DNA of 62,691 nucleotides from Chitinophagales bacterium (GTDB taxonomy: Bacteria > Bacteroidota > Bacteroidia > Chitinophagales > UBA2359): assembly GCA_020629005.1 (NCBI GenBank), contig JAHDEE010000010.1:1-62691 (forward strand), given 5' to 3'. The position numbers and the translations under genes were made by a program. Below are positions 28,317 through 59,100 of the stretch, piece by piece. Positions within the stretch are counted from its first letter, which is position 1; every line of letters begins with the position of its first letter. The notes below the pieces were generated by a model, which saw only the letters and a program-made list of their open reading frames with translations, was not told the origin of the DNA and ran no database searches.

Positions 28317-28403
28317 TTCACCATTGAAGTAAAAGATTGAAGGGAACATAGCTAAATAACTATCACTTCTAGTGGTTCCCAGCCACCTGTCATTTTGACG
28401 CTT

Positions 28404-31400: not shown

Positions 31401-31925
31401 GGATCTCCTCAAACAATCGATATCGTGAATGGAGCTACTAATCCGTCCTTGGTCCAGTTTATCATGCCGGCAGACGGGTCTTCCAGCAATTTGGTCACAG
31501 CTCAGTTCGAAGCTTTGAGCTCTTGCTCGGATACAGAGTTTTACAGTGCTCCGGTATCTTGTGCTCCCTTTACCTGCTCCCTTTCGATAACGGATGTAGA
31601 TGTGGGGCCATGTACCTACGATGCAAGTAACGGATTAAGTTCTGCTTTCGTAGATGTAGAGGTCACCTGGGACTTTGAGCCTTCCGGTGAACTGATTGAG
31701 ATTGTGCTGGATGGTCAAACCATGACAGTAAATCCAGCAACAAGCAGCTCACCAGAAACAGTGAGATTCTTTGTTGTGCCAAACGGATCATTGGGCAATC
31801 CAATCACGGCACAGTTCGAGACCACCAACTCTTGTGGAGATACAGATGACTACAATTCCCCAATACCATGCGATCCTGGTTGCCCAAATGGAGATTGCAT
31901 CAACATTAGCGTGGGAAGTGATTAA
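28404..31925 (+). CDS. Secreted DUF11 / SdrD_B repeat protein, paralogue 1
   Basis: I chose ATG 28404 rather than the in-frame TTG at 28395, because MKHILTLVLLLVLGSLAAHA is a textbook signal peptide cut before QLDITKSV; this gives 1173 aa. About five DUF11-like domains cover residues 21-820 (opening LDITKSV, then DVSKYTV, LISSWKTD, PNKYEVE and SEKLVKGQ), each with a VD.LPP.. or DILP-type strand. An SdrD_B domain lies at about 833-948 (DFVWNDLDQDGIQDPGEPG). The C-terminus (about 953-1165) holds two Cys-containing units homologous to the 93-aa repeat of the gene at 38191. No CHU_C or Por-type sorting domain is visible at the end (GDCINISVGSD), so the export and anchoring route is unclear. The gene at 33175 encodes a close paralogue. 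A structural surface role is inferred. Confidence 0.94.
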   Translation: MKHILTLVLLLVLGSLAAHAQLDITKSVNFTTTQTGVWIDYTLQYACPSTTTNCTGVQIVDALPPEMEYLAALGSVHTTGHTYDPVNHTVTFDFIDPLLAGSTGQVRIRVRFPNGPTPNGTVATNTAVISGTNAASVTSNEVSTTATAEDRMDVSKYTVVEGPVDGITTWQVRICNECQNCTSNGVLEPSSTVTIVDQLPPGAVYVESTNGGVYNATNHTVTWTIAPDLLEGGECVWRRVSATLPSSSFSQGDLVHNEADVTYTLYGEPTVSLTPGYDHNIPGSNPLISSWKTDDVTDRYPGMQGDYEIEFEITGNEDVSGLCIVDMLPEGLRVRGLNTGKFYYGGIYTPLNITVEYQTDLNPTWTLAGTYAVDDDAFVNFLDGSIPTGDYVDAVRLCFTGGDVPAGFDDYEPINIVYDVLDDAPIGVATNCVTVTETGPLTYPLAGSPCDDTNIVALATGTIPDPNKYEVETGDDFLHGDIVTWQITVKNGSSTSTPASNPVLYDLLPIYLEYVPGSWVKTGQSAGAIDAPLPTFTSIPNYNGTGRTLLIWEWENYDLQPGELINIEYDVEVLNTAIGGYNLVENIVYQTSDNTENQCWGSNQDPDIYDLDGDGNTTELLCGDVGNFTVELIPALDSEKLVKGQLDTQWTKYPDSGLTTPGGLADYTLDVCNTGTVPMTDIVLIDILPHLGDAGVIDLSPRDTEWEPVLAGPVTAPAGVTVYYSTEKNPCRSAEGIEPTGPPGCTAPNWTTAPPNPITSVSSLKFDFGTIVVNPGECLNLFWEMRAPVNAPTNGEIAWNSFGYIANDTYGNPVLPSEPIKVGIAIEPIDPAAHGDFVWNDLDQDGIQDPGEPGIPAVNVAIYQDNGDGIADPNTDNYVNFTVTDNTGHFIFPNLPAGDYFLVFTPPAGMTPSPTGVGNDNTIDSDGTITGIVSLAANDVDLTCDLGLFAMTSCDVLISNVVVSPCSYNSSTGQSSVEVNVYVDWANAVNGNILVDINGGSPQTIDIVNGATNPSLVQFIMPADGSSSNLVTAQFEALSSCSDTEFYSAPVSCAPFTCSLSITDVDVGPCTYDASNGLSSAFVDVEVTWDFEPSGELIEIVLDGQTMTVNPATSSSPETVRFFVVPNGSLGNPITAQFETTNSCGDTDDYNSPIPCDPGCPNGDCINISVGSD

Positions 31926-33174: not shown

Positions 33175-36100
33175 ATGAAAAAACTCTTACTCAGTAGTAT
33201 TTTTCTGCTGTTTAGTATGTATCTCAGTGCCCAGCTGGACATCACTAAATCAGTAGACCGAACGACGGCACAATGCGGCCTTTCTTTTACTTATACCTTG
33301 CAGTATGCTTGTCCAAGTACCACAACTAATTGCGAGGGAGTAACAATCGTTGATGCCTTACCTCCGGAGGTTGAATATTTGTCAAGTGTGGGAAGTACAC
33401 ATACAATTTCGGAGACTTATGATCCTGTGACACATGAAGTAACATTTGATTTTATTGAGCCGCTACCGGCGGGTTCAACAGGCGAGGTGAAAATTACAGT
33501 GCGTTTCCCAAACGGGAGTACGCCCAACGGAACTGTGGCTACAAATACAGCGACGATTGATGCAACCAATGCAGCTCCAGTAGTCAGCAATGAAGTAAGT
33601 ACAACTGCCTCAGCGGTCGATCGGATGATTATTAGTAAAGCTGTAGATGTGGAGGGAACGATAGATGGTAATACGAGTTACTACGTTCAGATTTGTAATG
33701 GGCAGTCTGGCGTCACGACTTCAGGAAGTCTGTTTCCAACTGGGGATGTGGTAATTGTCGATCAGTTGCCGCCTGGGTCAGTTTATGATTCGTCGACACA
33801 TAACGGGGTTTACAATGCGACCAACCATACGATTACCTGGACCTTCCCTGCTACTGATTTTGGTTTGGGGGATTGTCAATGGCCGAAGGTAACGGTGGTG
33901 TTTCCGTCCGGTACTTTTAATGTCGGCGATACAGTTACGAATTCTGCCGACTATAGTTACACACCCATCGGTGAGCCTGTGCAAACGGGTACAGTAACGG
34001 CGACCAGCACCATTCCGGGTGCTACCCCGCTTTATACTTTAAACAAGATGAGCTATGCAACTTTGGCATATCCCGGAGAAACGGGAACCTACTTTATGAA
34101 TGTAGCGAATGATGGGAATGTAGATGTTTCGGATCTCTGTATAGAGGATTATGCCCCTGCCGGACTGGAGTTTACAGGACTTCGTCCGGGAGCTTATTAT
34201 TTTGCCGGACCTCCGGCGAATATCGTGTTGACGGTTGACTATCAGACCAACCTAAATTCTACCTGGACTACGGAGCCAAATGGTCCCTACACAGATGATG
34301 ATCATGGTTATGTTGGTTTTAGCAGTTTGTTGGGATCTGGAGAATACGTAACTGCCGTTCGAATTTGTTTTGGGCCTGATGCTGTTCCGGCTGGATACGC
34401 AACTTATGACGATATTGAAATCTACTATCGGGTTCGGGACGATGCCCCCGCTGGAATTGCGACTAACTGTATCGATATTTCGGAGACGAGTCCTGAGACA
34501 TTTGCCATTCAGGGTGATCCTTGCCATGACATTGAAATTCTGGAATCTCTTTCAGGTGCATTGGTAGATCCCGAAAAGTACATCGTGGATTGGCAGCCTT
34601 CTTATCAGCCCGGTGATATTGTAACCTTCAATGTAACATTGGGCAACCATATTGCATCTGCAGATGCTTTGCAGAATCCGACACTGGTAGATCTTCTTCC
34701 AATATATTTTGATTATGTGCCTGGTTCCTGGTATGTGAATAACAGCAATGTCAGCGGGCCAGCCCCGACTCCGGCTTTTACGGAAACAACTAATTACAAT
34801 AGTACTGGTCAGACTCTGCTGGAGTGGTCTTTGAACGGATATAATCTGTTGCCTGGTGAGGACATTGATATAAGATTTGACGTAGAGATTTTGAACACCG
34901 TCATTGCACCTGCATTCGAAAATGGAGTGCACATCACCGGTGATAATATTAATAACGTATGTTATGAAACACTTGTGGTTGACAGCAAGGATGTAGATAA
35001 GGATGGCGATACAACGGAGCAAATATGTTGTGCTATAACTTCTGGAACCGTTTCTTCCATTCCTTCTCTGGAATCGGAGAAATTGGTAAAAGGGCAGTTG
35101 GATACTCAGTGGACCAAATATCCAGATTCTGGATTGACCACTCCTGGTGGACTAGCGGATTATACCCTTGAGGTTTGTAATACCGGAACCGTGCCTATGA
35201 CGGATATTGTGGTTTTGGACATACTGCCGCATATTGGAGATGCGGGTGTGATTGACTTATCTCCCAGAAATACACAATGGGAGCCAGTGCTGGCTGGGCC
35301 GGTTACCGCTCCTTCTGGAGTGACTGTATATTATAGTACCGAAAAGAATCCTTGTAGATCCGCTGAAGGTTTGGTGCCCTCTGGTCCCACGGGATGTGCT
35401 GCTCCAAATTGGACGACTGCGCCGCCAAATCCTATTACCTCTGTATCTTCTTTGAAGTTTGATTTTGGTACAATGGTGGTAAATCCCGGAGAGTGTTTGG
35501 ACCTGATGTGGGAAATGAGAGCGCCGGTAGATGCGCCAACGAACGGGGAGATTGCCTGGAACTCGTTTGGTTACATTGCAAATACAGTTGATGGCGATCC
35601 GGTGCTTCCTTCGGAGCCTATTAAGGTAGGAATTGCCATCGAACCCATAGATCCTGCTGCTCATGGAGACTTCGTTTGGAACGATTTGAATCAGGATGGT
35701 ATTCAGGATCCGGGAGAGCCCGGTATCCCTGGGGTAAATGTGGCCATCTATCAGGATAATGGAGATGGCAATGCGGACCCAAATACAGACACTTATGTGA
35801 ACTTTACGGTAACTGATAACACGGGACATTTCATATTTCCCAATTTGCCAGCAGGTGATTACTTCCTGGTCTTTACTCAGCCGGCTGGTATGACACCTTC
35901 GCCTACAGGTGTCGGAAATGACAATACGATTGACTCTGATGGTCTTATTACTGGAATTGTATCTCTGGCCGCACTGGATGTTGATTTGACTTGCGATTTA
36001 GGATTGTATTCGGTTAGCTCTTGTGATGTGTTGATTAGCAATATTGTGGTTAGTCCTTGTTCGTACAATACAGTAACGGGGCAGAGCACAGTGGAAGTAA

Positions 36101-36687
36101 ATGTATATGTCGATTGGGCAAATGCTCCTTCAGGACAAGATATCAATGTAAGTATCAATGGTGGTACCAGCCAATCGATCAACGTAAGTGGAGGCGCCTC
36201 GAACCCTGCATTGGTACAGTTTACTATGCCAGCGGATGGTAGTTCGAATAATCTGGTAATGGCCAGTTTTTCTTCCACGACCTCTTGCGGTGATACACAA
36301 ACTTACAGTGCACCGGTTTCCTGTGCGCCCTTTACTTGTTCGCTTCAGATTACGGATGTAGATGTTGGACCTTGTACTTATGATGCCAATAGTGGAACGA
36401 GTACCGCTTTTGTTGATGTGGAAGTTACCTGGTCTTATGCTCCGTCCGGGGAGATGATTGAGGTCATGCTGGATGGTCAAACGATGACTGTAAATCCTGC
36501 AACGGAAAGTTCACCTTCAACCGTTCGCTTCTTTATTACTCCGGACAGTTCTCTGAACAATCCGATTAGTGCAGAATTTGAAACGAGCACAAGCTGTGCT
36601 GATACAGATGATTATAATTCGCCTTCTCCCTGTAGTCCTGGTTGTCCAAATTCGGATTGCGTGGTGATTCGGGCTGTGGCGAATTAA
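33175..36687 (+). CDS. Secreted DUF11 / SdrD_B repeat protein, paralogue 2
   Basis: This is a 1170-aa paralogue of the 28404 product with the same layout. The signal peptide is MKKLLLSSIFLLFSMYLSA, cut before QLDITKSV. About five DUF11-like domains cover residues 20-817, an SdrD_B domain about 829-944 (DFVWNDLNQDGIQDPGEPG), and two C-terminal Cys-containing units about 949-1160 related to the 93-aa repeat of the next gene. Residues about 632-944 are almost identical to the paralogue, although the DNA differs at many third positions; the N-terminal two thirds differ much more. This indicates an older duplication with the core under purifying selection. No type IX sorting domain is seen at the end (CVVIRAVAN). 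The gene has its own terminators and lies upstream of the giant gene that amplifies its terminal repeat. Function beyond a surface structural role cannot be assigned. Confidence 0.94.
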   Translation: MKKLLLSSIFLLFSMYLSAQLDITKSVDRTTAQCGLSFTYTLQYACPSTTTNCEGVTIVDALPPEVEYLSSVGSTHTISETYDPVTHEVTFDFIEPLPAGSTGEVKITVRFPNGSTPNGTVATNTATIDATNAAPVVSNEVSTTASAVDRMIISKAVDVEGTIDGNTSYYVQICNGQSGVTTSGSLFPTGDVVIVDQLPPGSVYDSSTHNGVYNATNHTITWTFPATDFGLGDCQWPKVTVVFPSGTFNVGDTVTNSADYSYTPIGEPVQTGTVTATSTIPGATPLYTLNKMSYATLAYPGETGTYFMNVANDGNVDVSDLCIEDYAPAGLEFTGLRPGAYYFAGPPANIVLTVDYQTNLNSTWTTEPNGPYTDDDHGYVGFSSLLGSGEYVTAVRICFGPDAVPAGYATYDDIEIYYRVRDDAPAGIATNCIDISETSPETFAIQGDPCHDIEILESLSGALVDPEKYIVDWQPSYQPGDIVTFNVTLGNHIASADALQNPTLVDLLPIYFDYVPGSWYVNNSNVSGPAPTPAFTETTNYNSTGQTLLEWSLNGYNLLPGEDIDIRFDVEILNTVIAPAFENGVHITGDNINNVCYETLVVDSKDVDKDGDTTEQICCAITSGTVSSIPSLESEKLVKGQLDTQWTKYPDSGLTTPGGLADYTLEVCNTGTVPMTDIVVLDILPHIGDAGVIDLSPRNTQWEPVLAGPVTAPSGVTVYYSTEKNPCRSAEGLVPSGPTGCAAPNWTTAPPNPITSVSSLKFDFGTMVVNPGECLDLMWEMRAPVDAPTNGEIAWNSFGYIANTVDGDPVLPSEPIKVGIAIEPIDPAAHGDFVWNDLNQDGIQDPGEPGIPGVNVAIYQDNGDGNADPNTDTYVNFTVTDNTGHFIFPNLPAGDYFLVFTQPAGMTPSPTGVGNDNTIDSDGLITGIVSLAALDVDLTCDLGLYSVSSCDVLISNIVVSPCSYNTVTGQSTVEVNVYVDWANAPSGQDINVSINGGTSQSINVSGGASNPALVQFTMPADGSSNNLVMASFSSTTSCGDTQTYSAPVSCAPFTCSLQITDVDVGPCTYDANSGTSTAFVDVEVTWSYAPSGEMIEVMLDGQTMTVNPATESSPSTVRFFITPDSSLNNPISAEFETSTSCADTDDYNSPSPCSPGCPNSDCVVIRAVAN

Positions 36688-37990: not shown

Positions 37991-38190
37991 GGTGTCTGAT
38001 ACTCCTTGGTCTTTGTCTGCTAAGCCTACGATGTGGATACATTATCCTTCTGCTAATGCCCAAGACAATGTCCCCAAACAAAATCTAATCAGCAATGGAT
38101 TCTCCTATGCTAAGAGACCATCACAGGTTTCGAAAAAAAGAAGAAATAAAAAAAGAAAATAAACTATTAGACGACTTTAAAAGCATATTT

Positions 38191-41100
38191 ATGAGGAAAA
38201 TTTACACACTTTGGAAGACGGGTGTAGACCCATCTCCCAAAATTGTCCCACTGGGCCGCAGCCCCTTGCACTTCAAAAGCATTTTGCTTTTGCTGGTGTC
38301 TGTGCTGTTTATGGCCCTGCCTGCCGCAAGCTTGCAGGCGCAGTGGTGCCCCGGCAATTTGCTCACCAACGGCAGTTTTGAAACAGGCAGTGTATCTGGA
38401 TGGACTGTCTGTTCTGGTATTGTAACCAATGTTCCGGAGCAGAATAACTTTGCGACACAAGGTACCTGGATGAATGCCGTGTATGGTGACGTTGCCACTA
38501 ACAATGAAGGCTGTATCTATCAGGACATCAATGTTACTGCTGGTGATATTTACACCTTGCAAGTTGATGCAGGTGTCCACGATGTTTCAGGACAGTATAT
38601 TGGTTTGGAGTTTTTTGATGCCTCCAACAATCTAATGTCCACCGAAACAACCTATATCACTAATGATGTAGGGTCGGCGACCAGCAGTGGTGGTTTGGAG
38701 CCTTTTAGTGTTCAAGGCATTGCTCCAAATGGAGCTAGCTATGTTCGGGTAACACTATCTGGTGTTGCTAATCAGACCGGCGCCAAGTTTGACGCTGCTT
38801 GTCTGACGGCTGCAAATTGTGACAATACAACCTTTCAGGTGTGCCCGGAGCAGAATGAGACAGTGTCTCTTTCTTTGGATAATACCTATTCCGCTTATCA
38901 GTGGAATTTGAATGGTGCACCAATACCTGGAGCGACCTTGTCAACTTATGTTGCAGGTACACCGGGTGTGTACACTGTGTCTGTCGATGATGCAGATGGT
39001 TGTCCTCATATATCTTGTTGTCCAATTACACTGGAAGAAGCCTGCTTTGACCTTGCACTGACCAAGGTTCTTGCATTTGGGCAGTCAGCCTCTGTGGCTC
39101 CAGGCGATCCAGTGACCTTTACAGTAGAGGTGATCAATCAGGGAAGCATTGCGGCTGATAACATCAGTCTCATTGATTACTATCCTGCTGATTTGATACT
39201 GAACGACAGCAATTGGTCAGGAAATCCAGCCACGACTACCCTTTCGGTGGCTAATGGGGGCCTTGCAAATGGTGGCCTGCAACCGGGTAATTCGATTTCA
39301 GTCGATATTACCTTTCAAGTAGATCCGAATGCAACCACTAGTGGAAGTATCACAAACTGGTCGGAGATCAGCGGTGCTACTGATGCTACTGGGGCAGCTG
39401 CTACCGACATTGATTCTACGCCTGATACAATTCAAAGTAACGATACTTTTTCCTCGGATAACTCAACCTCAGGGGATGGAAATAATGGTGGTGACGAAGA
39501 TGATCATGACCCTGCCTCTGTTTCCCTGGGTGTTCCTTGTAGCTTGACAATTACGAATGTTACTCCAGGGTCATGTGATCCGGCCACTAATACTTACAGT
39601 CTCACTGTTAACGTGTCTTATAGTAGTGATCCCGGCGGCTTGATCAATGTAAATGGCTCTACTTTTCCTTCTGATGGAAGTGGTAGTCAGTCCTTTACTA
39701 TCAACAACCTGGCTGCCAATGGTCAAACCAATGTGCCGGTCAGTGCTTACTTTGTTGCTGACCCTACTTGTTTTGATGATGACGTCTATAATGCTCCGGC
39801 AGATTGTGCTCCAATTTGTACCCTGTCAATTGTTTCTGCTAATCCAGGAACTTGTGATCCTGCGACAAACACTTACAGTCTTGACGTCACCGTCAATTAC
39901 TCTAATGATCCTGGAGGATTGATCGATATTAATGGTCAGACCTTTGCGTCAAATGGAAGCGGAAACCAAACCTTTACGTTAACTGGTTTGGTAGCTAACG
40001 GAGCTACGAATCTACCGGTCAATGCCTTTTTCGCCTCTGATGCGAATTGCTTTGATACATTTTCGTATAACGCTCCTGCCGATTGTTCCCTCAACTGTAC
40101 TTTAAGTATTGTAAGTGCGACACCAGGATCTTGTGATCCTGCAACGAATACCTACACTTTGAATGTTACAGTTAGCTATTCGGATGATCCTGGCGGCATT
40201 ATCAATATCAATGGTTCGACATTCCCATCTGACGGATCCGGCAATGAAACCTTCAGCATTCCGAACCTACCTGCAAATGGAAGTACAGGACTTTCTGTCA
40301 ATGCCTTCTTTGTTTCTGATCCGAATTGCTTTGATACGGGTTCCTACAATGCGCCTGCGGATTGTACACCGATTTGTAGCCTAAGTATAACCAATATCGT
40401 GGAGGGGCCTTGTGATCCTGCTACGAATACTTTTGATGTTGCCGTGACTGTTAGTTATACAAACAGCCCCGGTGGTTTGATAGACATAAATGGAAACTTC
40501 TTCGCTTCGAATGGAAGCGGAAACCAAACATTCACCCTCACTGGTCTGCCATCTGATGGTTCTGCGGGAAATGCTTTGAATGCCTTCTTTGTTGATGACT
40601 CTGCTTGTAGAGATAATGGTACTTATGACGCACCTGCTGACTGTACCCCGATTTGCTCCTTGATTATACAGACGGTTGCGCCAGGTCCTTGTGATCCAGT
40701 GACCAATGAACATAGCCTGGATGTAACTGTAAATGTATCGGATGGTGCTGGCTCCTTGATATTTATCAATGGACAGTTCTTCCCCTATACTGGAGACGGA
40801 GTACATACCTATACGCTAACTGGATTAGCTTCTACTGGAACAGGTAATATTCCTGTCGAGGCCTTTTTCGTAGATGATCCAAATTGTGGAGACATCTCTT
40901 CCTATAACTCACCTGCGAACTGTATTCCTTGTAATCTCGATATTTCTGCAGTAACTGCAGGCGCTTGTGATCCAGTGACCAATACTTTCGATTTGACAGT
41001 CGTGGTTACCTATGAAAATGATCCCGGTGGTAATATCGATGTAAATGGTCAGACATTCGCTTCGGATGGGAGTGGTTCTCAGGTAATAACTTTGAGTAAT

Positions 41101-44100
41101 TTACCTGCCAATGGTTCTGTGGGGAATCAGATTGATGCCCACTTTGTAAATGAGCCTGGTTGTGCCGCGATTGATTTCTATAATGCACCTCCGGAATGTA
41201 TCCCTTGTGTACTTAGCAATATCACAGCTACGCCTGGTACTTGTGATCCTGCAACCAATACATATGACCTGACAGTTTCAATCACCTACAATAATGATCC
41301 AGGTGGTTTGATTGACGTGAATGGAACCTTCTTCACTTCAGATGGGAGTGGCAGCCAAACATTCACGATTCCAGATTTGACTGCAGACGGTTCTACTGCG
41401 AATCCTGTTTCTGTGTATTTTGTTGATGCACCAAGTTGCAGTGCTAATACTACTTATAATGCACCTGCAGATTGTACACCGATTTGTAATCTTACGATCA
41501 GTGCCGTTACAGAACGTGTCTGTGATCCGGAAACAAACACATTCGATGTGGATGTTACGATTACTTATGTAAATGATCCGGGAGGCTTGATTGATATCAA
41601 CGGCCAGTTCTTTGCTTCAAATGGAAGTGGCAATCAAACCTTCACTTTATCTGGTTTGCCTGCTAATGGAAGTACAGGCAACCCTATAACAGCGTATTTC
41701 CTTGATGATCCTGCTTGTATAGATTCAGGTGTCTTCGACGCTCCGCCGTCTTGTACGCCAATCTGTAGCTTCACTATCGCGAGTGCTGCGCCTACACCGT
41801 GTGATCCTGAAACAAACACCTACGATTTGATCGTAACTGTTTCATATACAAATGATCCAGGTGGCTTGATCGATTTGAATGGTAACCTCTTCGCTTCAAA
41901 TGGTACCGGAAGTCAAACCTTCATGATTGAAGATTTGCCATCTGATGGATCAACTGGAAATGCAGTAAATGGATTCTTCGTGGACGATCCTGGATGTGCC
42001 GACAATACAACTTACAATGCACCAGCTGATTGTACGCCAATTTGTAATTTGACAATCTCAGGTATTACTCCGGGGCCTTGTGATCCGGAAACTAACACTT
42101 TTGACTTGTCTGTACAGGTTAGTTATACAAATAGTCCTGGTGGCTTGATAGACATCAACGGAAATTTGTTTGCTTCCGATGGCAGTGGCAGCCAGACCTT
42201 GGTTTTGTCTGGATTGACAGCCGATGGTTCTACAGGTAATGCGATCAATGCGTTCTTTGTAGACGATCCGGGATGTTCGAATTCCTCGACTTATACGGCT
42301 CCGGCCAACTGTGAGCCAGTATGTAATATCAACATCACAGGAGTTACTCCTGGTGCTTGTGATCCTAATACAAACACTTACTCGCTTACAGTTGATGTAA
42401 CCTACTCGGATGACCCTGGAGGCTTGATAGATATTAACGGTAATCAATTTGCTTCAGATGGCTCAGGAAGCCAGTCGTATACAATTTCTGGTCTGCCTGC
42501 TGATGGCAGTACGGCAAATGTTGTTACTGCTTATTTCATAGATGATTCTGCTTGTAATGATGTTGCAAACTATGACGCTCCAACGGATTGTACACCAGTT
42601 TGTAATATGTTTATCTCAGCAGTTCAGGATGGTCCTTGTGATCCTGCTACTAATACCTTCAATCTGGATGTAACGATCACATATTCAAATGATCCTGGAG
42701 GGCTTGTTGACATCAACGGTCAACTATTTGCTGTCAATGGCAGCGGCCTTCAGACTTTTACATTAACAAATCTACCAGCAGATGGAAGCATTGGAAATCC
42801 TTTGGATGCCTTCTTTGTGAATGACCCTGCATGTTCTGATAATCGATTCTACGACGCTGCTGCGGATTGTACTCCTTGTTCGATGGAGATTCTATTTGTT
42901 GCTCCAGGTGATTGTGATCCTGTTACAAATACATATCCACTTACAGTAGCAGTATCCTATTCTGACCAACCTGCCGGCGATATTGATATCAACGGCCAGC
43001 TATTTACACCAGGCGGTTCAGGAAGTGATACTTTCGTACTGAATGGCTTGAATGCAGATGGTTCTGCCGGGAATCTTGTTACGGCCATGTTCGTCAACGA
43101 AATCGGTTGTCAGGATACAGATGCGTACAATGCGCCTCAAGCTTGTACACCTTGTAGTCTGTCTGTTGCCAATGTTGTACCTGGTCCATGTGATCCGGAC
43201 ACCAACACCTTCTCTGTAGATGTTACAGTGACTTACACTGACGATCCAGGAGGCCTGATTTCAGTTAATACAGAACTGTTCCCAAGCAATGGTACTGGTA
43301 ATCAAACCTTCACACTTACTGGATTAACAGCCGATGGTTCGACTGCAAATCCAGTAGATGTATTCTTTGTAAATGATCCTAGTTGTGGTGATACAGGAAG
43401 CTATAATGCTCCAGCAGATTGTACTCCTGTCTGTGACTTGTTAATTGCAACGCTAACTCCAGGTCCATGTGATCCTAATACAGACACTTTTGATTTGGAA
43501 GTAAATGTGACCTATTCAAATGATCCTGGTGGACTCATTGATATCAATGGAATGTTCTTCTCCTCAAATGGAAGTGGAAATCAAACATTTGTGATTCCAA
43601 ATCAGCCTGCCGATGGTACTGCTGGTATTCCAATTGTTGCCTACTTTGTCAATGATCCATTATGTACACATTTGGAGAGATACGATGCTCCTGAAAGCTG
43701 TGCACCGGTGTGTGACATAACTATTTCTACGATTGTTCCTGGACCTTGTGATCCTGAAACTAATACCTTTAGTTATGACGTTACGGTTACCTATGTGGAT
43801 GATCCAGGAGGACTGATAGACATCAATGGATCTTTCTATGCGTCAAACGGTTCTGGAAATCAAACATTCACAATTTTCAATCAGGTTGCTGACGGCTCAG
43901 TTGGGAATGTGGTCAATGCATTTTTTGTTGATCAGCCTGGCTGCTCTGATACTGGAACCTATGATGCTCCTGCGGATTGTACTCCTGTTTGTGATTTCAC
44001 TATTGTATCTGTTACACCTGGTCCTTGTGATCCGGATACAAACACTTATGACGTTGCAGTGGAGGTTAGTTATGCAAATGGTCCGGGAGGACTTATTGAT

Positions 44101-47100
44101 ATAAACGGACAGTTCTTTTCGTCCAACGGTACAGGATCTCAAACATTTACCTTGGCTGCCTTACCAGCCGATGGCTCAACAGCCAATGCGGTAAATGCCT
44201 TCTTTGTCGATGATCCGGGATGTAGTGATCTTGGTTCTTTTGACGCACCAGCCGAATGTACGCCAGTTTGTAATCTGAGTATTTCAAATGTGGCACCTGG
44301 TGCCTGTAATCCGGAAGATGATACTTTTGAGTTGGTCGTAACGCTGACCTACAGCAATGGTCCTGGAGGTCTTTTCGATCTTAATGGTCAGCTGTTTGGT
44401 GTGAATGGTACAGGCACTCAAACGGTTATTGTTACTGGTATTCCTGCTGATGGAAGTACCGGAAACACCTTGGAAGCATTCTTCGTGAATGATCCGGCTT
44501 GTAATGATGCTGCAGCTTACGATGCACCAGATCCTTGTAACTTCGATCTCGCCCTAACAAAGGTTCTTTCCACGGGTCAACCTGCAACGGTGAACCCTGG
44601 TGATGATGTGACGTTCACTATTACCGTCTTCAATCAGGGATCAATTCCTGCACAGGATGTACTAATCACTGATTATATACCTTCTGGGTGGACGCTAAAT
44701 GACAGCAACTGGAACCTTGCTGGCTCAACAGCAACTAACACTATTACCTCAGTAATTCCTGTAGGTGGAAATGCTACTGTTGATATCACCTTGACTGCAG
44801 GTAGTGCACCAGGTGACTTCTTGAATTTTGCTGAGATAACAAGTGCAAATGATACAAATGGAACACCTCAGGGAGATGTAGATTCAACTCCGGACAATAA
44901 TGCTGGTAATGACGGCCCATATGAGGACAATGAGACCAACAACAGTAACGGAGATGAAGATGATCATGATCCTGCTGGAGTCACCGTAAACGAAATCTGT
45001 AATTTGACAATCGTTGCGGTTAATCCTGGTCTTTGTGATCCAGAAACCAATACCTATGATGTTTCGATTGAAGTGAGCTATTCAGGTGACCAAGGAGGAT
45101 TGTTGGATATCAATGGTCAGTTCTTTGCTACTAACGGAACTGGGAACCAGACCTTTGTCTTGGCAGGTTTGCCTGCAGATGGTTCAACTGCCAATGCAAT
45201 CAACGCCTTCTTTGTTGATGATGCGGCTTGTGCTGCAAATGATAGCTTTAATGCGCCGGCAGATTGTACACCTATTTGTGATCTGACAATCGCTGCGATA
45301 ACTCCGGGTCCTTGTGATCCAGCTACCAATACTTATGATGTTGTAGTTGATGTAACCTACACAAACAGTCCTGGTGGTCTTCTGGATATCAACGGACAGC
45401 TATTTGCTTCTGATGGATCGGGAGCACAATCAATTACATTGGCTGGATTTACCGCGGATGGTTCTCTAGGAAATGCAGTAAATGCCTTCTTTGTGGAATC
45501 CCCAGGATGCTTCGATTCCGGAAGCTTTGACGCTCCTGCGGACTGTACTCCAGTATGTAGTTTGCAAATTGCTGCCTTGGTTCCTGGTCCATGTGATCCT
45601 ACAACGAATACCTACGATCTCAATGTTACTGTTACCTACGTCAACGATCCGGGAGGCCTGATCGATGTGAACGGTAACTTCTTCGCTTCAGACGGAACAG
45701 GTTCACAAACCTTTACTTTGCCTGGGTTGATTGCAGATGGTACTGCTGGTATTCCGGTTAACGCATTCTTTGTGGATGATCCTTCATGTATTCAACTTGA
45801 CCGTTATGATGCACCAGTGGATTGTACGCCAATTTGCGATATGACTATAGCTTCTATTGCGCCGGGAGCTTGTGATCCTACAACTAATACTTACACTATA
45901 GATGTAACGGTAACTTACAACAATGGCCCTGGTGGTCTTATTGATGTCAACGGTGAGCTGTTTGCATCTGATGGTTCTGGAAATGAGACCTTTACCCTAT
46001 CTGGATTATCCGCTAACGGTAGCACTGCTAATCCTCTTGATGCATTCTTCGTTGATGACACAGCATGTGCTGCCTCGTCCACGTTTGACGCACCGGTGGA
46101 TTGTTCTCCATGTGACCTTCAAGTGATCAATGTTTCTGAAGGCCCATGTGATCCGGTAACTAATACTTTCTCCTTGTCTGTCACATTCGAATATGAGAAC
46201 GATCCAGGTGGAACTATTGACATTGACGGTCAAACTTTCCCGGTTGATGGAAGTGGTCAACAGACTGTTAGCGTTACTGGTTTCCCTTCTGATGGAAGTA
46301 CAGGTAACCAACTGACTGCTTTCTTTACCAATGCAACAGGATGTGAGGATTTACTATTTTATGATGCCCCTGAGGCATGTATCCCCTGTGCGATGACAAT
46401 CTTGTCTGCTACGCCAGGTCCATGTGATCCAGCGACAAATACTTTTGATCTTAGTGTTACTGTATCTTATACTGATTCTCCAGGCGGTTTGATTGATGTC
46501 AATGGAGAACTGTTCGCCTCTAACGGAACCGGCTCTGAAACCTTTGTACTGGAGAATCTGCCAGCAGATGGTTCGACTTCAAACGGAGTTGCTGCCTTCT
46601 TCATAAATGATCCTGGTTGTATCGACAATGATCTTTATGATTCACCTGCTGATTGTACTCCGATTTGTGATTTGGTATTTACCTCAGTAGTTCCTGGTAC
46701 TTGCGACCCTGAGACAAACACATACGATCTAACGATTAATGTAACCTACACAAATGATCCTGGTGGTATGATAGATATCAACGGCCAGTTCTTTGCTGCA
46801 GATGGAACAGGATCGCAAAGCCTTGTAATTTCAGGCCTGACTGCCAATGGTAGTGTAGCGAATGTAGTTACAGGATTCTTTGTTGACGATCCTTCATGTA
46901 TGGCCTCTGATAGTTATAATGCTCCAGCGGACTGTACGCCAATCTGTGATTTGGTTGTAGATTCTGTTGTTCCAGGACCCTGTGATCCTGATACCAACAC
47001 GTTTGACGTTGATATTACGATATCGTATACAAATGATCCAGGAGGAATGATCGATGTCAATGGTCAATTCTTCTCTTCAAACGGCTCGGGGAGTCAGACA

Positions 47101-50100
47101 TTTACCTTAAGCGGTTTGACTGCTGATGGATCAACTGCAAACGCTGTGAATGTATTCTTTGTAGATGCACCTGCATGTTTTGATTTAGGAAGTTATGATG
47201 CACCGGCAGATTGTACTCCAATTTGTGATTTGACTGTGGATGCGGTAACGCCGGGTCCTTGTGATCCAAACACAAACACTTTTGATGTGGATGTAATTGT
47301 TACATACAATAACAGCCCTGGAGGATTGATTGATGTAAATGGACAGTTCTTTGCTTCAGATGGTTCTGGAAGCCAGACCTTCACCTTGAGTGGATTGGCT
47401 GCTGATGGATCTACGGGTAATGGGGTAAACGCATTCTTCGTGGATGATCCAGCATGTTTTGCTTCAGGCACCTTCGACGCACCAGCTGGCTGTACTCCGA
47501 TTTGCTCGATGACGATTGCAACTGTAACACCGGGTCCTTGTGATCCTGATTCAGATACTTTTGATCTCTTTGTTACAGTCAATTATACAAATGATCCTGG
47601 CGGTACAATAGACCTAAATGGATTCATGTTCTCAAGTAATGGATCTGGTAGTCAGACTTTCACACTCAGCGGTTTACCTGCCGACGGAAGCACGGCGAAC
47701 CCATTGGAAGCGTTCTTCGTCAATGATCCAGCATGTGGAGCCAGTGAAGTATATGACGCTCCGAATGCATGTAACTTTGACCTTGCCCTGATTAAAGTGC
47801 TTGCCATTGGTGAGCCTTCAGTCTTAAATCCTGGAGATGATGTCACATTTACAATCTCTGTGTTTAATCAGGGTACAGTAGATGCCGCAAACGTAGTGGT
47901 GACAGATTACATTCCTGCTGGATTTACACTCAATGACACCGATTGGACGGGAGGTGCAACTACAGCTAGCTACAATGTTCCAGGTACAATCCCGGCTGGT
48001 GGTTTTGTGCAGGTTGACATCACCTTGACAGCTGGTACAATCCTGGGAGATACTGCAAATTTTGCGGAGGTTTCTGCAGCTACGGATGGCAACGGAAATC
48101 CGGTGACGGATGTTGATTCGACACCAGATACTGACCCTGGAAATGATGGGCCATACGATGACAATGAAACTTCGAATAATAACTCGGATGAAGATGACCA
48201 CGATCCCGAATTTGTGACAGTCGAAGGGGTTTGTGATCTAACGATCACTGCACTGATTCCTGGTCCTTGTGATCCGGAAACGAATACCTATTCACTGGAT
48301 ATTCAAATAACTTACAGCAATAGTCCTGGAGGTTTGATCTCTATCGATGGTAATCTCTTCGCTAGTGACGGGTCGGGCAATGAGACCTTTACCATTGAAG
48401 ACTTGCCAGCAAACGGTTCCTTGGCGAATCAGGTTTCAGCCTTTTTTGTGAGTGAGTCAATATGTGCAGATAGCGGAACTTACGATGCTCCTGAAGGTTG
48501 TTCACCGGTTTGTGCCCTTGCAATTTCTGAAGTGGCTTTCAAACCTTGTGACCCGGATAATGATACTTTTGATTTGATGGTAACTGTTACCTATTCAAAT
48601 TCTCCTGGAGGGCTTATCGCTCTGAATGGGACAATGTATCCGGCTGATGGTTCTGGCTCTCAGGTATTTCTGATCAGCGGTCTGGATGCTGATGGTTCAA
48701 CTGGGAATCCGCTCTCAGTCTTCTTCGTAGGGGATAACACCTGTGCTGATGCAACTACCTATGACTCACCTCAACCATGTAATTTTGACCTTGCGCTAAC
48801 CAAGGTCTTAGCTGCGGGTCAGGATACAAACGTAGTTCCTGGCGAAGATGTAGTTTATACTATCTATGTAACGAATCAGGGAACCGTAGACGCTCAGAAT
48901 ATTGAAATTGTCGATTATCTACCTTCCGGCTTTACTTTGAATGATCCGGCCTGGACAGACAACTTTAATGGTACAGCTAGTTACACCATTGGTGGTCTTC
49001 TGCCAGCTGGAACAACTACTAGCGTAGATATCACAGTATCTGCCGGTCCAAATGTGGGAGACTTCTTGAACTTTGGTGAGGTAGTTACAGCTGATGATCC
49101 AACAGGTAATCCTGCAGTAGATGTGGACTCAAATCCGGACAATGATCCAAACAATGATGGACCATATCAGGACGATGTTACTGATAATTCGCTGGGTGAT
49201 GAGGATGATCACGATCCGGCTGAGGTAACAGTTGATGAGACGCCAGTATTTGACTTGGCTCTTGCCAAGAAGCTTGCAACCGGTCAAAGTGCGACTGTAG
49301 TACCTGGTGATGATGTTACCTTTACTATCACAGTTTATAATCAAGGAAATGCAACTGCTTACGGAGTTCAGGTTACTGATTATATCCCAACAGGATTCAC
49401 ACTTAATGATGGAAGCTGGAACGAATTGACGAATAGTACAGCAACTTATAATGTGCCTAATGCAATCAATCCTGGTTCATTTGCAACTGTAGATATTACA
49501 TTGACTGTTTCTGCAAATGCGCAGCCAGGTGATCTAGTAAATTATGCGGAGATATCATTTGCTGATGACGACACTGATGCAGGAAATGGAACTCCAACTG
49601 ATGTAGATAGTACTCCTGATTCGAATGCTTCCAACGATGTTGGGGGTACACCGAATACCAATGAGGATAATCATATTGAGGATGATGCCGCGGATACCAA
49701 TGGTGATGGTATCAGAGATGAGGATGATCATGATCCAGCTCTGGTTACAGTTGTTTTTGTGGATTTGGAATTGACAAAACAGGTTTGCGAGATCGACGGT
49801 ATCACACCAGCATCTGTAGTTAACCTTGGTGATCAGGTCATCTACAAGATCACTGTAGAAAACAGGACCTTAGCTCCCGATTCAGTCAATATAGATGCGA
49901 CTAATGTACAAGTGTTTGACAACTTGCCTGGTCAGGTTAGTTATGTCACCAGCACCGCTTCACAGGGAAGTTATGCGAATGGATCAGGCGTCTGGAACGT
50001 CGGGACGCTTGTAAATGGAGAAACTGAAACCTTAGAAATTACCGTTACAGTTGATCAACCAGGTGACATATTCAATACTGCTCAGGTAAGTTCCGCTGAC

Positions 50101-53100
50101 CAGCCGGATATTGATAGTGTTCCAAACAACAATGTGGAATCCGAAGATGATCAGGAAACTGTTCCACTTACTGGAGTTGTTGTTGATTTAGCTCTTGATA
50201 AATCAGTAGTACCAGCTGCTGGAGGATCGATTTTAGACCTTGAGCTCGGTGATGATATTATTTACACTATTCAGGTCTGCAATGAAGGAGATTATGACGC
50301 TACTGGCGTTGAAGTAACGGATGTGCTTCCTCCAGGGTTAATCTACGTCAGCAATGATCAGGCAGCTGCTTTTGTTGATCCTACAATCACCTGGACAATT
50401 GGTGGTTTAGCAACAGGACAATGTGTTGCCTTGGAAATTGTTGCTACAATTGATGACACTGAACCGATTGTCAATAGCGCTGAGATCACTGCTACTGACC
50501 AACCTGATGTTGATAGTGAACCAGATAATGATGATCCAACGGAAGATGATCAGGATGAGGTAGTAGTAGATGTTGATGTTCCGCCAGTGGCTGATATCTC
50601 TGTATTTAAGGATGCAAATCCAAGCGAGGTGTTTGTTGGCGAGCAATTGACCTTCTCGATTGAGTTGAACAATTCAGGTCCAAACCTCGCAGATAGTTTG
50701 GTTGTTGAGGAAATTCTTCCAACTGGATTGAACTACGTAAGTCATATAGTTACCAAGGGAGCTTACGATCCGGCAACCGGATTGTGGATCGTCGGAAATG
50801 CTGCTTTGTCTCCTGGCGAAAGTGAATTCTTGTATATCGTAGTAGAAGTGACCGCTCCAGGTCCCTTCGAAAACATTGCTGAATTGGTTTACAGCGATGT
50901 TCCTGATGTAGATTCAACTCCCGACAATGAGGATCCTGACGAAGACGATCAGGATAATGAGATTGTTGGAGGTATTCTCGTGGATTTGGAACTTCAAAAG
51001 ACAGGTCCAGCTCCCGGTATAGTTAATGTAGGTGACTTGTACACTTATACTTTGACGCTCTACAACAACCCGAATGCCGGTGCTAGTCCAAGTGATGCAA
51101 CAGGCGTTGTCGTGTTTGATAACTTGCCTTCTGGCGTTAGCTGGGTAAGTGATCTTCCATCACAAGGAACTTATAGTTATACTACTGGACAGTGGCAAGT
51201 CGGTACCCTTGCAAATGGGGCTACTGCAACACTGGATATTACAGTAATGGTTGATCAGCCAGGTGCTATTCTCAATACCGCTCAGGTAAGTGAGCAGGAT
51301 CAACCAGACTATGATAGTATTCCAAATGATGATGATGCAGACGATGACGAAGACGACAATGAACCATTTGAAGATGATGAAACTAATCATCCGATTGAAG
51401 GAGTACAAGTGGACTTGTCACTACAAAAGACGGTAGATGAAACGCAAGTAAATCTGGGTGACCAGGTAACCTTTACATTGACGGTCAATAATGATGGTCC
51501 AAACGACGCAACTAACATCGAAGTAACTGATGAATTACCAGCAGGTTTGACATTCGTGTCCGCAAGCGATCCTAGTTACAATCCTTCAGCCGGAGATAAT
51601 GTTTGGAATATCCCAGGGCCTCTGGCAATGGGTGCTACTGCTACTTTGGATATCGTGGTTACGGTCGAAGGCGTCGGTCCATATGTAAATGAAGCGGAAA
51701 TTACCGGGGCTGATCAGCCTGATTCTGATAGTACACCGGACAATGATGATCCTACCGAGGATGATCAAGATGATGTTGTAGTTGGCGGTACTTATATTGA
51801 CCTTGAGCTCTTCAAAGAAGTAAATGTTGAAGAGGTGAATGTAGGTGATCAGATAGAATTTGTGATTACAGTTGAAAATAACGGACCGGAAATCGCAACC
51901 AATGTAGAAGTAACAGATTATCTTCCAACCTGTATGACTCTAATGCAGGCAAACCCAACAAATGGAGTTTACGATGCTGCCACAGGAGTTTGGAGTCTAC
52001 CAGAGATCTTTGTAGGTGAACAAGAGGAATTGGTTCTGACTGTTACAGTTGACCAGCCTGGAAGTTGCATCAACGTAGCAGAAATCACTTCAGTTGATCA
52101 GGTTGATTTTGATTCAACTCCAAATAATGATGATGGAGATCAAAGTGAAGATGATGAGGATAATGAAGAGGTAATTGCGAAAGTAGTAGATCTGGAACTT
52201 ACAAAAGACCATGATGCCGCTGCTATCGTCTATGAAGGCGATCAATTTACTTATACTGTTACGGTATGGAACAACCCTAATGCCGGCGCAACAGCATTTG
52301 ATGCTACAGGGGTTCAGGTAACAGATGAGCTACCTGCTGGTGTGACATTCATAAGTGCCAATCCTAGCAGCGGGTCTTACAATCCAAGCTCAGGACTTTG
52401 GATTATTGGCAATTTGCCAAGTGATGCGACTGCTACACTGGATATAACAGTAGTAGTAGATGGCTCCGTGTCTGGTACAATTGATAATATTGCGGAGGTT
52501 ATTGCTCAGGATCAGCCGGATATTGATTCTGAACCAGACAATGACGACGGTGATCAGAGCGAAGATGATGAGGATCCTGAACCGATTGAGGTTGGTGATA
52601 CCGTAATCGATTTGTCAGTTGTCAAATCAATCGCAGGAGGGCTTACTTCTGTAAATGTTGGTGATCAGGTAACCTATGTTATTCAGGTTGATAACAATGC
52701 CACTGCTATGGCTGGAATATCGACGGCGACAGGTGTGACAGTGTTTGATCAGCTACCAGGTGAAGTGACTTATATCTCTCATACTCAGACTTCAGGCTCT
52801 TATAGTCCGGGGACAGGTATTTGGGTTGTAGGTTCTTTGGCAGACGGAGAATCTCAGACTTTGGAGATAACTGTGGAAGTCAATGCTGCCGGTACTTTTG
52901 ACAACATTACTCAAGTATTGACTGCTGATCAGGAAGATGTTGATTCCGATCCAAATAATGATGATGGTGATCAGAGTGAAGATGATGAAGATATCGTTCC
53001 TTTGGAAGCCGTACAGATAGATTTGGAGCTTAGCAAATCTGTTAGCTCTACTCAAGTCAATTTGGGAGATGTTGTGACATTTACCTTGTTGGTTGAAAAC

Positions 53101-56100
53101 CTCGGTCCTAGCGATGCGACCGGAGTTGCTGTGTCGGACTATCTACCAGTAGATTTGATCAACCCTACGAATATCAGCAATGGTGGAACTGCTTCGGGAT
53201 CAACGATCAATTGGTCTGGACTCAGCATCCCGAACGGTGGAAGTGTTTCCTTGACTTTCGATGCAACTGTCAACACTGACGCTACTACTACTAACGTTGC
53301 TGAAGTGACGGCTGCTGATCAACCAGACGTTGACAGTATGCCTGATAATGATGATGGAAATCAGGACGAAGACGATGAAGACAATGTTAGCGTAAACGGT
53401 ATTGCAGTAGACCTGGAACTAACCAAAGAGGCAGATGCTACCGTATATAATGTTGATGGCACTATCACTTACACATTGATCGTGGAGAACAATGGTCCAG
53501 CGGATGCTACAAATATTGAAGTTACCGACATTCTACCTGCGGAAGTGACCTACGTTTCATCTGATCCAAGTGATGGAGCAACCTATGATCCTGTGACAGG
53601 AATCTGGTATCTACCTGAAATCTTTGCAGGCGAAATCGAATTCCTAAACATTACAGTAACTGCCGATCAGCCTGGTACCATTGTAAATGGTGCTGAGATT
53701 ACTGCTGTTGATCAGACAGATCTCGACAGCACCCCTGACAATGACGTGCCTACTGAAGATGATCAAGATGAAGTTGTGGTGGTTACAGAGGCCATAGACC
53801 TGGAGGTTGTAAAACTTGTGGATGGAGTAAATCTTCAGAATGTGGAGGTTGGCGATCAGGTGACCTATACCATTGAGGTGTCAAACAATCCTAACGCTTT
53901 GCCGGATCTTTCTGATGCAACTGGAGTTGTAGTTCTGGATAATCTGCCAAGCGGACTGGTTGTAATCAGCAACACAGCTACTATGGGTACCTACAATGTT
54001 CAAACCGGAGAATGGTTTGTCGGTACTCTGCCGAACGGAGTATCGCAAACCTTAACCATCGTGGCTCAGGTAACTGGAAGCGGAACAATCAATAATATTG
54101 CTCAGGTTTCTGCGGCTGATCAGCCGGATATTGATAGCGATCCAAGCAACGATGATGGAGATCAAAGTGAAGATGATGAAGACAATGCAGTCATAGAAAG
54201 TACAAACATTGTTGATCTGGCACTGACGAAAGTAGTCGATGCAGCAAGTGTACAGCTAGGACAGCCATTTACATTTACGATCACCTTAGAGAACCAAGGG
54301 CCAAATGATGCAACAGGTGTTCAGGTATTTGACCAATTGCCGGCCAACCTTACCTTCATCAATTCTAACACAAGTCTTGGCTACTATAGCGCCGGGACAG
54401 GTGAATGGTTTGTTGGATTTATGGCAAATGGACAAGTCGAGACACTCGAGATCACAGTAATTGCAAATGAGCCAGGTGACTACACTAACATTGCTGAAGT
54501 AGTTGCAGCTGATCAGGACGATATTGATAGCACACCTGGAAACGATGATGGAGACCAAAGCGAAGATGATGAAGATAGCGCGCAGGTTAGCGTGACTCAG
54601 GAGATTGACCTTCAGCTTGACAAGTCGGTTAATTTTGATCAGGTTAGCTTGAATGATGTTGTAACCTTTACAATCACATTGGTTAACAATGGTCCAGATG
54701 ACGCTACAGGCGTTACAGTTCTGGATGAGCTTCCAGCAGGACTTCAGTATGTTAATTCTGATGGTAACTATAATCCTGCTACCGGAATTTGGTACGTGGG
54801 TAATGTGCCAAACGGAGCAATCATCTCTCTTGACATAGAAGCACTGGTTACAGACATCACACTGGGGCCAATTACAAATATTGCAGAAGTTGAATCGCAT
54901 AACGAAAATGATGTTGATAGCACACCAGGCGATAATGATGGTGATGCAAATGTTTCTGATTTTGACGACGAAGATGATGAAACAATTTATCCTCAATCAG
55001 AGGAAATCGATATTGCATTGACTAAAACTGCTAATGCTTCACAAGTTGCAGTTGGCGACCAGTTCACCTATACTATTACAGTGGTGAATCTTGGCCCTGA
55101 TAATGCAACGTCGGTAAGTGTTTACGATGAATTGCCTCCTGGACTTCAGTTTGTAGGATCTAACGGAAACTATGACCCTGTTACAGGAATCTGGTATATA
55201 GGGGATCTAAATGTAAATGCTCAGGCTAATTTGGATATAGATGTGGCAGTTTCAAGTATCTCTGGCCCTATCACCAACATTGCTGAGGTGGAAACGCATG
55301 ATCAGCAGGACATTGATAGTACACCAGGTGATAATGATGGAGATGCGAATGTAGCAGACTTTGATGATGAAGACGATGTCACAGTATTGCCGGCAGATGA
55401 ACCGGTTGTTGATTTGGAGCTTACTAAGACTGCAAACGTTACCAATGTCGCTGTTGGAGATGTATTTACCTATACAATAACTGTGGTCAACAATGGACCT
55501 GACGATGCGACTGGACTAAGCGTTTTGGATGAGCTTCCTGCAAGTCTTTCATATGTTGACTCTGATGGAAATTACGATCCAAATACCAATATCTGGTTCA
55601 TCGGAGACCTTCCTGCAGGATACGTGCAGAGCTTGGATATCGAAGTGCAGGTACTGGATGCGTCAGTAGCCATTACCAACATTGCTGAGGTTGAGGGGCA
55701 TAATGAAACAGATGTTGATAGTACGCCTGGTGATAATGATGGAGATCCTAACGTTTCTGACTTTGATGACGAAGACGATGCGACTGTATTCCCAGAGGCG
55801 GATCCTGTTGTTGATCTAACGCTTACAAAGTCAGTTAACGCTACACAAGTAGGGGTTGGAGACCAGTTTACCTACTCAATTTCTGTTACCAATGAGGGAC
55901 CAGATGATGCTACTGGAGTTAGCGTGTGGGATGATTTGCCAGCTGGACTAACTTATGTCACTACTAGTGGGAATTTCGATTCAGCGACCGGTATCTGGTT
56001 TATCGGTGACTTGGCAAGTGGGGCCACTACTTCACTCGACATTGTTGTGGAGGTTGCAAGTATCAATGGTCCTATTACCAATATTGCTGAAATTGAAACT

Positions 56101-59100
56101 ACTAATGAAAACGATAGTGATAGCACTCCCGGTGACAATGATGGAAATGCAGATGTAACTGATTTTGATGACGAAGATGATGCAGTAGTATATCCTGTTG
56201 ACGATCCGGTAGTTGACCTTGAGTTGACAAAGACTGCTAATGCCACCACTGGTGGTGTAGGGGATGTATTCACATACACCGTCACCGTTGAAAACCTAGG
56301 TCCTGATCCTGCGACTTCAGTTACTGTCTTTGATGAGTTGCCAGCAGGTTTGGCTTATCTGGACTCTGACGGTAACTACAACCCTGGAACAGGGCTATGG
56401 TATATCGGGGACATTGCAGTTGGAGAGTTTGTTTCTCTTGATATTGAAGTGCTGATTACTGATATCAGTTCTCCTATTGTTAATATCGCCGAAGTTGAAA
56501 GTGCAAATGAGACAGATGTTGATAGTACTCCTGGAGACAATGATGGGTCCACGAATGTTGATGACTTCGATGATGAAGATGATTGGGTTATCGATCCACC
56601 TTTAGCACCTCAAGTGGATATTGAGTTGACCAAGGTAGCTAATGCCTCACAGGTGGAAGCTGGAGATGTGTTTACATACACACTTACAGTGTCTAATGCT
56701 GGTCCGGATGATGCAACTGCTGTAAGTGTGCTGGATAACCTACCTGGTGGTTTCCAATACATCAGTTCAAATGGAAATTACAATCCGAACAATGGAATTT
56801 GGACAATCGGAGACCTGGCAGCAGGTAATTCTGCTTCGATTGATATTACCGTGCAGGTTGTTACTATCTCTGGACCGCTGTCAAACATTGCGGAAGTTGA
56901 AACGACCGCTGAGGGAGACATTGATAGTACTCCGGGTGACAATGATGGAAGTGATATAGTAGATGACTTTGATGATGAAGATGAAGCTACTGTATATCCA
57001 GTTGATCAACCGGTGATAGATCTTGAATTGTCTAAGACCGTAAGTGCGGGACAAGTAGATATTGGTGAGGTCTTTACCTACACAATTGAGGTGGTGAACA
57101 TGGGACCTGATAATGCTACCGGAGTAAGTGTTTATGATGAACTTCCTGCGGGACTGCAGTATGTTGGTTCCGATGGAAACTACAGCCCTGCAACCGGAAT
57201 TTGGTTTATCGGTGATCTGCCAGTTGGAGCAACGACAACTCTTGATATTGATGTACAAGTACTTGATATCACTGGGCCTCTAACGAACATTGCTGAGGTA
57301 GAAGGTGCGAATGAAGATGACTCTGATAGCACACCTGGCGACAATGATGGTAATTCAAACGTTTCAGATTTTGATGATGAGGATGATGCCACAGTCTACC
57401 CAGTTGATCAACCAGTTATTGACCTTGAACTTACAAAGGCGGTAAATGCAACGCAAGTAGGAGTAGGTGATCAATTTACTTACACAATCACTGTGACGAA
57501 CCAAGGTCCTGACGATGCGACAAATGTGAGCGTTTATGATGAATTACCTGTGGGACTACAATTCGTAGGAACTAACGGAAATTATAATGCAAGTTCGGGA
57601 ATCTGGTTCATTGGAAACCTCTCTGCTGGCGCCTCGGCCAATCTGGATATTACAGTGAATGTGTTGTCCATTACTGATCCAATTACAAACATAGCGGAGG
57701 TAGAGTCTGCTAACGAGGATGATATTGACAGCACGCCTGGAGATAACAATGGAAACGCTGATGTAAGCGACTTTGATGATGAAGATGATGCAATCGTTTA
57801 TCCTGAAGATGAACCTATGGTTGATCTTGATCTTGTGAAGACGGCCAGCGTTATAACCGCGGGAGTCGGTGATACTTTCACGTATACCATAACTGTTTCA
57901 AATTCAGGTCCTGATATGGCTACTGGTGTGAGTGTATATGACGAACTCCCTTCCGAACTTCAGTATGTGGGTTCCGATGGAAATTATGATCCTTCATCTG
58001 GTATATGGTTCATTGGGGACCTTGCACCTGGTGCTACAATTACATTGGATATTGATGTGCTGGTTTTGGCTTTGTCTGGAAACTTGACGAATATTGCAGA
58101 GATTGAAACCACTAATGAGCAAGACGTTGACAGCACACCTGGAGATAATAATGGCGATCCCGACGTAGCAGACTTTGATGATGAAGATGATGCAGTGGTA
58201 TCTCCTGAAGATGCTCCTCAAGTTGATCTGGATTTGGATAAGATTTCAAATGCAAGTCAGGTCGCGGCAGGTGATGTGTTTACCTACACAGTAACAGTGA
58301 GCAATCAAGGGCCGGATGATGCGAGCGGTGTTTCCGTTTTGGACGAATTGCCAACAGGACTTCAGTACGTTGACTCAGATGGTAACTATAATCCTGCAAC
58401 TAGCATTTGGTACATTGGTGATATCGCTGCTGGAGCAACTATATCTCTCGATATCGAGGTTTTAGTAATTGATATCACAGATCCAATTACCAATATTGCT
58501 GAGATTGAAACAACAAACGAAGCTGATGTTGATAGCACCCCAGGAGACAATGATGGTAATCCTGATGTGTCAGATTTTGATGATGAAGATGATGATACTG
58601 TATTCCCGGTTGATGAGCCGGTTGTAGATCTGCAATTGGTGAAAACTGCGAATGCGACCCAGGTTGCGAACGGAGATACTTTTACCTATACCATTACTGT
58701 GAACAACCAAGGACCAGATGATGCAACTGGCGTATCCGTGCAAGATGACATTCCGGTTGGGCTGCAATATGTTGGTACCAACGGAAACTACGATGCTGCG
58801 ACTGGTATCTGGTATATTGGAGATCTTGCTGCTGGTGCAACGATAAGTCTTGATATTGATGTGTTGGTCGTTGACATTACAACAACAATTACGAACATTG
58901 CTGAAATTGAAACTACAACAGAAAATGATTCCGATAGTACTCCTGGAGATAACGATGGGGATCTAAATGTTGGGGACTTTGACGATGAAGATTCCGCAGA
59001 GGTATTCCCTGCAGATGAGCCTGTTGTTGACCTGACCCTAAACAAGTCGGCTAACGTAACACAGGTTGCGGTGGGAGATCAGTTTACCTATACAATTACT

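Follow-up and report, generated by a model that had tools for sequence, protein, structure and literature searches.

The unit of 90 amino acids and four cysteines that recurs 30 times within a giant open reading frame of the DNA analysed here (hereafter the window: 62,691 nucleotides from a Chitinophagales bacterium) is a real extracellular domain family, uncatalogued in the Pfam and NCBIfam libraries tested and recurrent in Bacteroidota. The family itself is solid; the interesting part is a probable double disulfide clamp. The reading that we favour as a whole is that of an Ig/FnIII-like family of Bacteroidota, each unit of which would be closed by two internal disulfides, and which would build a load-bearing stalk of beads clamped by two different chemistries; we give it a probability of about 0.6.

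The giant secreted-protein gene lies on the + strand at 38095–62691, where 8199 codons without a stop run off the contig; its product therefore counts at least 8199 aa, and its C-terminus, including any sorting signal of its own, falls beyond the contig end. A hydrophobic stretch near aa 62–83 resembles, by eye, a signal peptide. The original prediction had counted 30 copies of the repeat in blocks of 18, 10 and 2, and all of them are indeed found in this one frame, between 39538 and 48780. A first DUF11 (CLIPPER) domain at 39049–39537 (PF01345, 40 bits; its start placed from the triad count) precedes the blocks. Block 1 (18 units, 39538–44538), block 2 (10 units, 44998–47772) and block 3 (2 units, 48232–48780), delimited by unit alignment and profile, are each followed by DUF11, and a single DUF11 domain separates neighbouring blocks: at 44545–44997 (PF01345, 55 bits; start again from the triad count) between blocks 1 and 2, and at 47779–48231 (recognised by its position and its K-D-N triad) between blocks 2 and 3. 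From 48787 to 62691 follow about 35 consecutive DUF11 domains, a number estimated from 33 DUF11 stretches and the triad count, and the series continues beyond the contig end. All these features are on the + strand; no binding domain was identified in the giant protein. The window holds two giant DUF11 genes, this one (38095–62691, >8199 aa) and another at 4729–27804 (7691 aa). The latter contains, at 10099–15288, a tandem array of 11 copies of 462 bp with 80% matches, which looks younger than the array of 90-aa units.

All 30 units have the same length of exactly 90 aa, C1 being the first residue and C90 the last. The predicted repeat is thus real, but what had been taken as a unit of 93 aa is a unit of 90 aa plus a linker of 2–3 aa, and the period is not strictly 279 bp: of the 27 within-block junctions, 21 have a spacing of 279 bp, with a linker of three residues (usually TPI or TPV), and the other 6 one of 276 bp, with a linker of two. 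A proline is present in nearly every linker. Nine columns are invariant in 30/30 units (C1, C13, C78, C90, P15, G47, G49, G62 and F72), so that the four cysteines, first described as near-invariant, are fully invariant here. A higher-order repeat of seven units, prompted by the intervals at which the short linkers recur, was rejected, since in block 1 the mean identity at offset 7 (0.567) compares with 0.52–0.58 at the other offsets, which is at most weak support.

Outside these columns the units have diverged widely. Their mean identity is 56% in amino acids and 60% in DNA (range 48–71%), and the array is absent from the output of Tandem Repeats Finder; the “amplified” repeat of the prediction is therefore a genuine array, but an old and diversified one. 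With this amino-acid identity and a dN/dS of about 0.19 among units, obtained from pairs with usable dS (pairwise dS lies near 2 and in many cases is saturated, and 184 of the 435 pairs, undefined or saturated, were left out), the array is not a recent DNA amplification, and its units are under purifying selection. As no two copies exceed 71% DNA identity, an assembly artefact behind the array is unlikely. Chance resemblance is excluded as well: the profile built from the units scores all 30 of them at E 5.3e-35 or better, and copies from other genomes, absent from that profile, reach E 9.5e-35.

No named family accounts for the unit. Pfam-A (2025) was scanned with three-unit fragments, with all 30 units and with diverse relatives (sets of 37 and 49), and NCBIfam (2026) with three-unit fragments and the 37 relatives; among these fragments, units and relatives no family of either library matches reproducibly, as the original prediction had supposed. 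The unit is also, as proposed for DUF11, SdrD_B, Big_9 and PKD, distinct from several named domains. DUF11 (PF01345) is listed for 0/30 units and 0/49 diverse relatives, with a profile–profile probability of at most 0.2, and the units have no conserved Lys column, hence not the Lys-Asp-Asn isopeptide triad of DUF11; SdrD_B, Big_9, PKD and the SprB repeat do not appear among the matches when units and relatives are scanned against the whole of Pfam-A. The few matches that did appear were set aside. The autochaperone family AC_1 (PF18883) reaches 27.9 bits against a gathering score of 27.1 in one three-unit fragment; we rejected it because it is not reproduced across units and relatives (4/30 single units, best E 0.0029; 0/49 relatives). 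Sequence matches in the PDB to Kelch and designed SAKe propellers, with E values down to 1e-13, are summed over many repeats, and the top ones have per-stretch E values above 10. In the metalloprotease WP_309942201.1 of Aureibacter tunicatorum, Pfam finds GEVED and a T9SS tail, with 13 unit copies between them; within these copies Dicty_CAD passes the cut-off by repeat summing and Bile_Hydr_Trans stays below threshold, and both, not being reproduced in relatives, are taken as chance.

The fold is less novel than the sequence. AlphaFold2, run with sequences of the window and of relatives, gives a pLDDT of 95.6 and a pTM of 0.82 for a single unit, and a pLDDT of 95.2 with a pTM of 0.61 for three tandem units. 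The confidence of both models agrees with the proposal of an independently folding unit; the stiff rod that had been imagined is not borne out, since a tandem pTM of only 0.61 leaves the relative orientations of the units uncertain. The predicted strands are A (2–10), B (19–29), C (35–38), C' (41–44), E (49–59), F (66–72) and G (75–84), and the model is solidly that of a seven-strand all-beta sandwich of the Ig/FnIII type. By VIA-align the closest solved folds are FnIII and GH2 sandwich domains (rmsd 2–3 over roughly 70–87 residues, <20% identity) together with HAP2/fusexin domains, at a Z of about 8 that may reflect only a common arrangement. A Foldseek search of the single unit against the PDB gave no match at E 0.001, which does not imply a new fold, and a viral structure library gave no match at the same value. 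The solved FnIII-, GH2- and fusexin-type matches make the predicted fold class an ordinary one; what is unnamed is the sequence family and its cysteine pattern.

The unit is no peculiarity of the giant protein, as might have been believed from the window's main array. In the source genome the profile matches 43 places at E 1 or better, among them two pairs of divergent copies found by profile search on the + strand of the window: at 31263–31871, the C-terminus of a DUF11 and SdrD_B protein (ORF 28395–31925), and at 36022–36633, the C-terminus of its paralogue (ORF 33175–36687). These two ORFs (1176 and 1170 aa) are closely similar tandem paralogues located directly upstream of the giant gene. 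With the source genome counted, the unit is present in 19/20 genomes examined of the same family and in at least 9/395 genomes sampled from the phylum, the latter count being a lower bound because only a small number of candidates was scored in each genome. When 84,980 species genomes were scanned with a pattern, 41 loci came up, all in groups labelled Bacteroidota (Chitinophagales, Saprospiraceae, Flavobacteriales, Crocinitomicaceae, Cyclobacteriaceae, Rudanella, Fibrella and others). A phage or viral origin was rejected, the phage records and IMG/VR containing no match to the unit.

This distribution bears on what the unit does. It occurs singly or in tandem, from 1 to 37 profile matches per ORF, with very different partners (metalloprotease, SdrD_B, Big_9), and the single occurrences, which load bearing does not explain, speak against a purely mechanical role. 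Occurrence both singly and in tandem, beside such different partners, would suit a module binding a glycan or a protein, multiplied for avidity and only stabilised by its disulfides, an idea to which a low-score fold match to CBM31 also lends something; but no binding family of Pfam matches the unit, and its fold matches point to nothing more specific than a generic sandwich. We regard such a module as improbable. The wide range of copy numbers would equally be expected of protease-resistant spacers, weakly constrained in number and having no specific mechanical function. Against spacers stand the dN/dS given above and the preservation of length and cysteines over deep divergence, although these bear on the fold and not directly on force; we hold spacers to be no better a candidate than a binding module.

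How the cysteines pair was approached through a survey of 273 copies from many genomes, in which one assignment of C1 absence was corrected by hand. None of the 273 copies lacks C2, and only 4 lack C4, for the most part where an end is truncated. A joint loss of C1 and C3 is seen in 4 copies, which belong to only two proteins (one of Aureibacter, one of a Bacteroidia MAG); this association gives a Fisher p of about 4e-5, for copies that are not fully independent, and no other pair of cysteines is significantly linked. Among the 16 copies without C1, 12 retain C3, which indicates that the C1/C3 pair is not strictly obligate. Over 58 loci the C1–C2 spacing correlates with the C3–C4 spacing (Spearman 0.57), as would be expected of adjacent strands A and G that are bridged at both ends. 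Finally, an orthologous pair (L012 and L049) devoid of a normally placed C1 has an extra cysteine at the end of strand B, which in an FnIII-like topology would be at the same pole as C1.

Isolated copies bear on whether the disulfides run inside or between units, a choice that the original prediction had left undecided: 53/64 of them have all four cysteines, and the bonds are for this reason probably internal to each unit. A link from C90 to C1 of the next unit across the 2–3 residue linker, making a head-to-tail stiff rod, is favoured by the 3–4 residues that part these cysteines at 27/27 within-block junctions, but those neighbourless copies, the array ends that keep their cysteines (C1 in 38/40 first copies, C4 in 37/40 last copies) and the loss of C1 in company with C3 and not with C4 make it the least probable of the alternatives. 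Taken with the paired losses, the spacing correlation, the placement of the extra cysteines and the predicted topology, the isolated copies favour the pairing C1–C3 (C1–C78) and C2–C4 (C13–C90) as the likely one; the positions of the cysteines in the predicted strands and the paired losses support a putative cross-link between the first and last strands. Eight relatives possess six cysteines, the additional pair being located where strand C ends and strand F starts; these two places are presumably neighbours in FnIII topology. In the loci of this six-cysteine subfamily (L099, L101, L105, L109) the position of the pair would suit a bridge between strands C and F.

On the intra-unit pairing, C1–C78 would join the start of strand A to the start of strand G at the N-terminal pole, and C13–C90 the end of strand A to the domain's own end at the C-terminal pole. 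The only covalent routes through a unit would then be the segments 1–13 and 78–90, each about 12 residues long and running in parallel, and residues 13–78 would stay outside the covalent load path. A unit pulled in this way could lengthen very little, and the chain would bear load without unravelling.

The neighbouring domains offer a second kind of clamp. Work of 2025 established that DUF11 is a stalk domain of fibrillar adhesins closed by an isopeptide bond and gave it the new name CLIPPER; its Lys-Asp-Asn triad is visible in the crystal structure (PMC12617251). In the DUF11 units of the giant protein (n=38, one of them cut by the window end) the Lys is found in 38/38, the Asp in 35/38 and the Asn in 37/38; judged by eye on one unit, the Lys–Asp spacing is near the crystal-structure value and the Asp–Asn spacing somewhat shorter. 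Almost all DUF11 units of this gene, the second of the two giant genes along the window, thus including the run at 48787–62691, keep the triad. With the triad retained in DUF11 and a clamp proposed for the 90-aa unit, the protein resembles a string of clamped beads of two chemistries, in which 30 disulfide beads would alternate in blocks with isopeptide-type DUF11/CLIPPER beads. It would form a long surface stalk of the fibrillar-adhesin type, keeping a functional part at a distance from the cell in the face of load or proteases. That the unit is a Bacteroidota-wide stalk domain with a natural double-disulfide mechanical lock, and yields an almost inextensible tether when mixed with isopeptide-locked DUF11, we put forward tentatively, at somewhat less than even odds.

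The surface location, the export by T9SS and the load bearing of the giant protein are suggested by its own domains, by T9SS domains on two other carriers of the unit and by the presence of SprA and CHU_C in the genome. These two carriers end in Por_Secre_tail (Aureibacter) and CHU_C (Crocinitomicaceae), and the source genome encodes SprA, 60 CHU_C matches and a VKOR-family protein. The latter, L122, is the only match to this family in the genome, a membrane protein of 506 aa whose C-terminal segment carries CxxC, and may be a disulfide-forming oxidase or a partner of peptide export. We also observed that large proteins end in a short cysteine motif, approximately C-x(1-4)-C-P-x(2-3)-C-x(1-2)-hydrophobic-x-hydrophobic, with few residues after it. 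It lies in the window at 31872–31925 and 36634–36687, forms the C-termini in L022, L038, L040, L042, L079, L102 and L111, and recurs in Rudanella, Fibrella and Chitinophagales, which stand far apart within Bacteroidota; possibly it is a C-terminal signal for sorting or anchoring that has gone unrecognised.

For annotation, the unit fills a stretch left blank in many surface proteins of Bacteroidota—the single Aureibacter metalloprotease has 13 copies, other giant ORFs more than 30—and would give a new domain entry. Among solved structures its nearest likenesses by VIA-align, the FnIII and GH2 sandwich domains, share the fold and differ in sequence, with identity below 20%. DUF11/CLIPPER, which adjoins the unit here, is likewise an Ig-like extracellular domain, internally cross-linked and arrayed in tandem in giant surface proteins (PMC12617251); however, its bond is a Lys–Asn isopeptide whereas the unit has four invariant cysteines and no conserved Lys, and neither Pfam scan nor profile comparison relates the two in sequence.

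The mechanical parallels are found in Gram-positive bacteria. In the ester-bond domains of Cpe0147 and the pilin domains of Spy0128, a covalent bond between the first and last strands removes the body of the domain from the load path, as proposed for the unit, and a disulfide engineered at the ester-bond site of the C1 domain of Cpe0147 can lock this domain against pulling (PMC8382745); on the other hand their natural bonds are ester or isopeptide, and they are not relatives of the unit in the sequence searches run. The giant adhesin of Mobiluncus mulieris, with 51 Ig-like domains covalently cross-linked by more than one chemistry, resembles the mixed chain proposed here, but its main bonds are ester and isopeptide and its disulfide joins strands 2 and 5 within a domain (PMC10619420). 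If the disulfide lock is true, the unit would be the natural counterpart both of the isopeptide and ester locks of Gram-positive adhesins and of the engineered disulfide lock.
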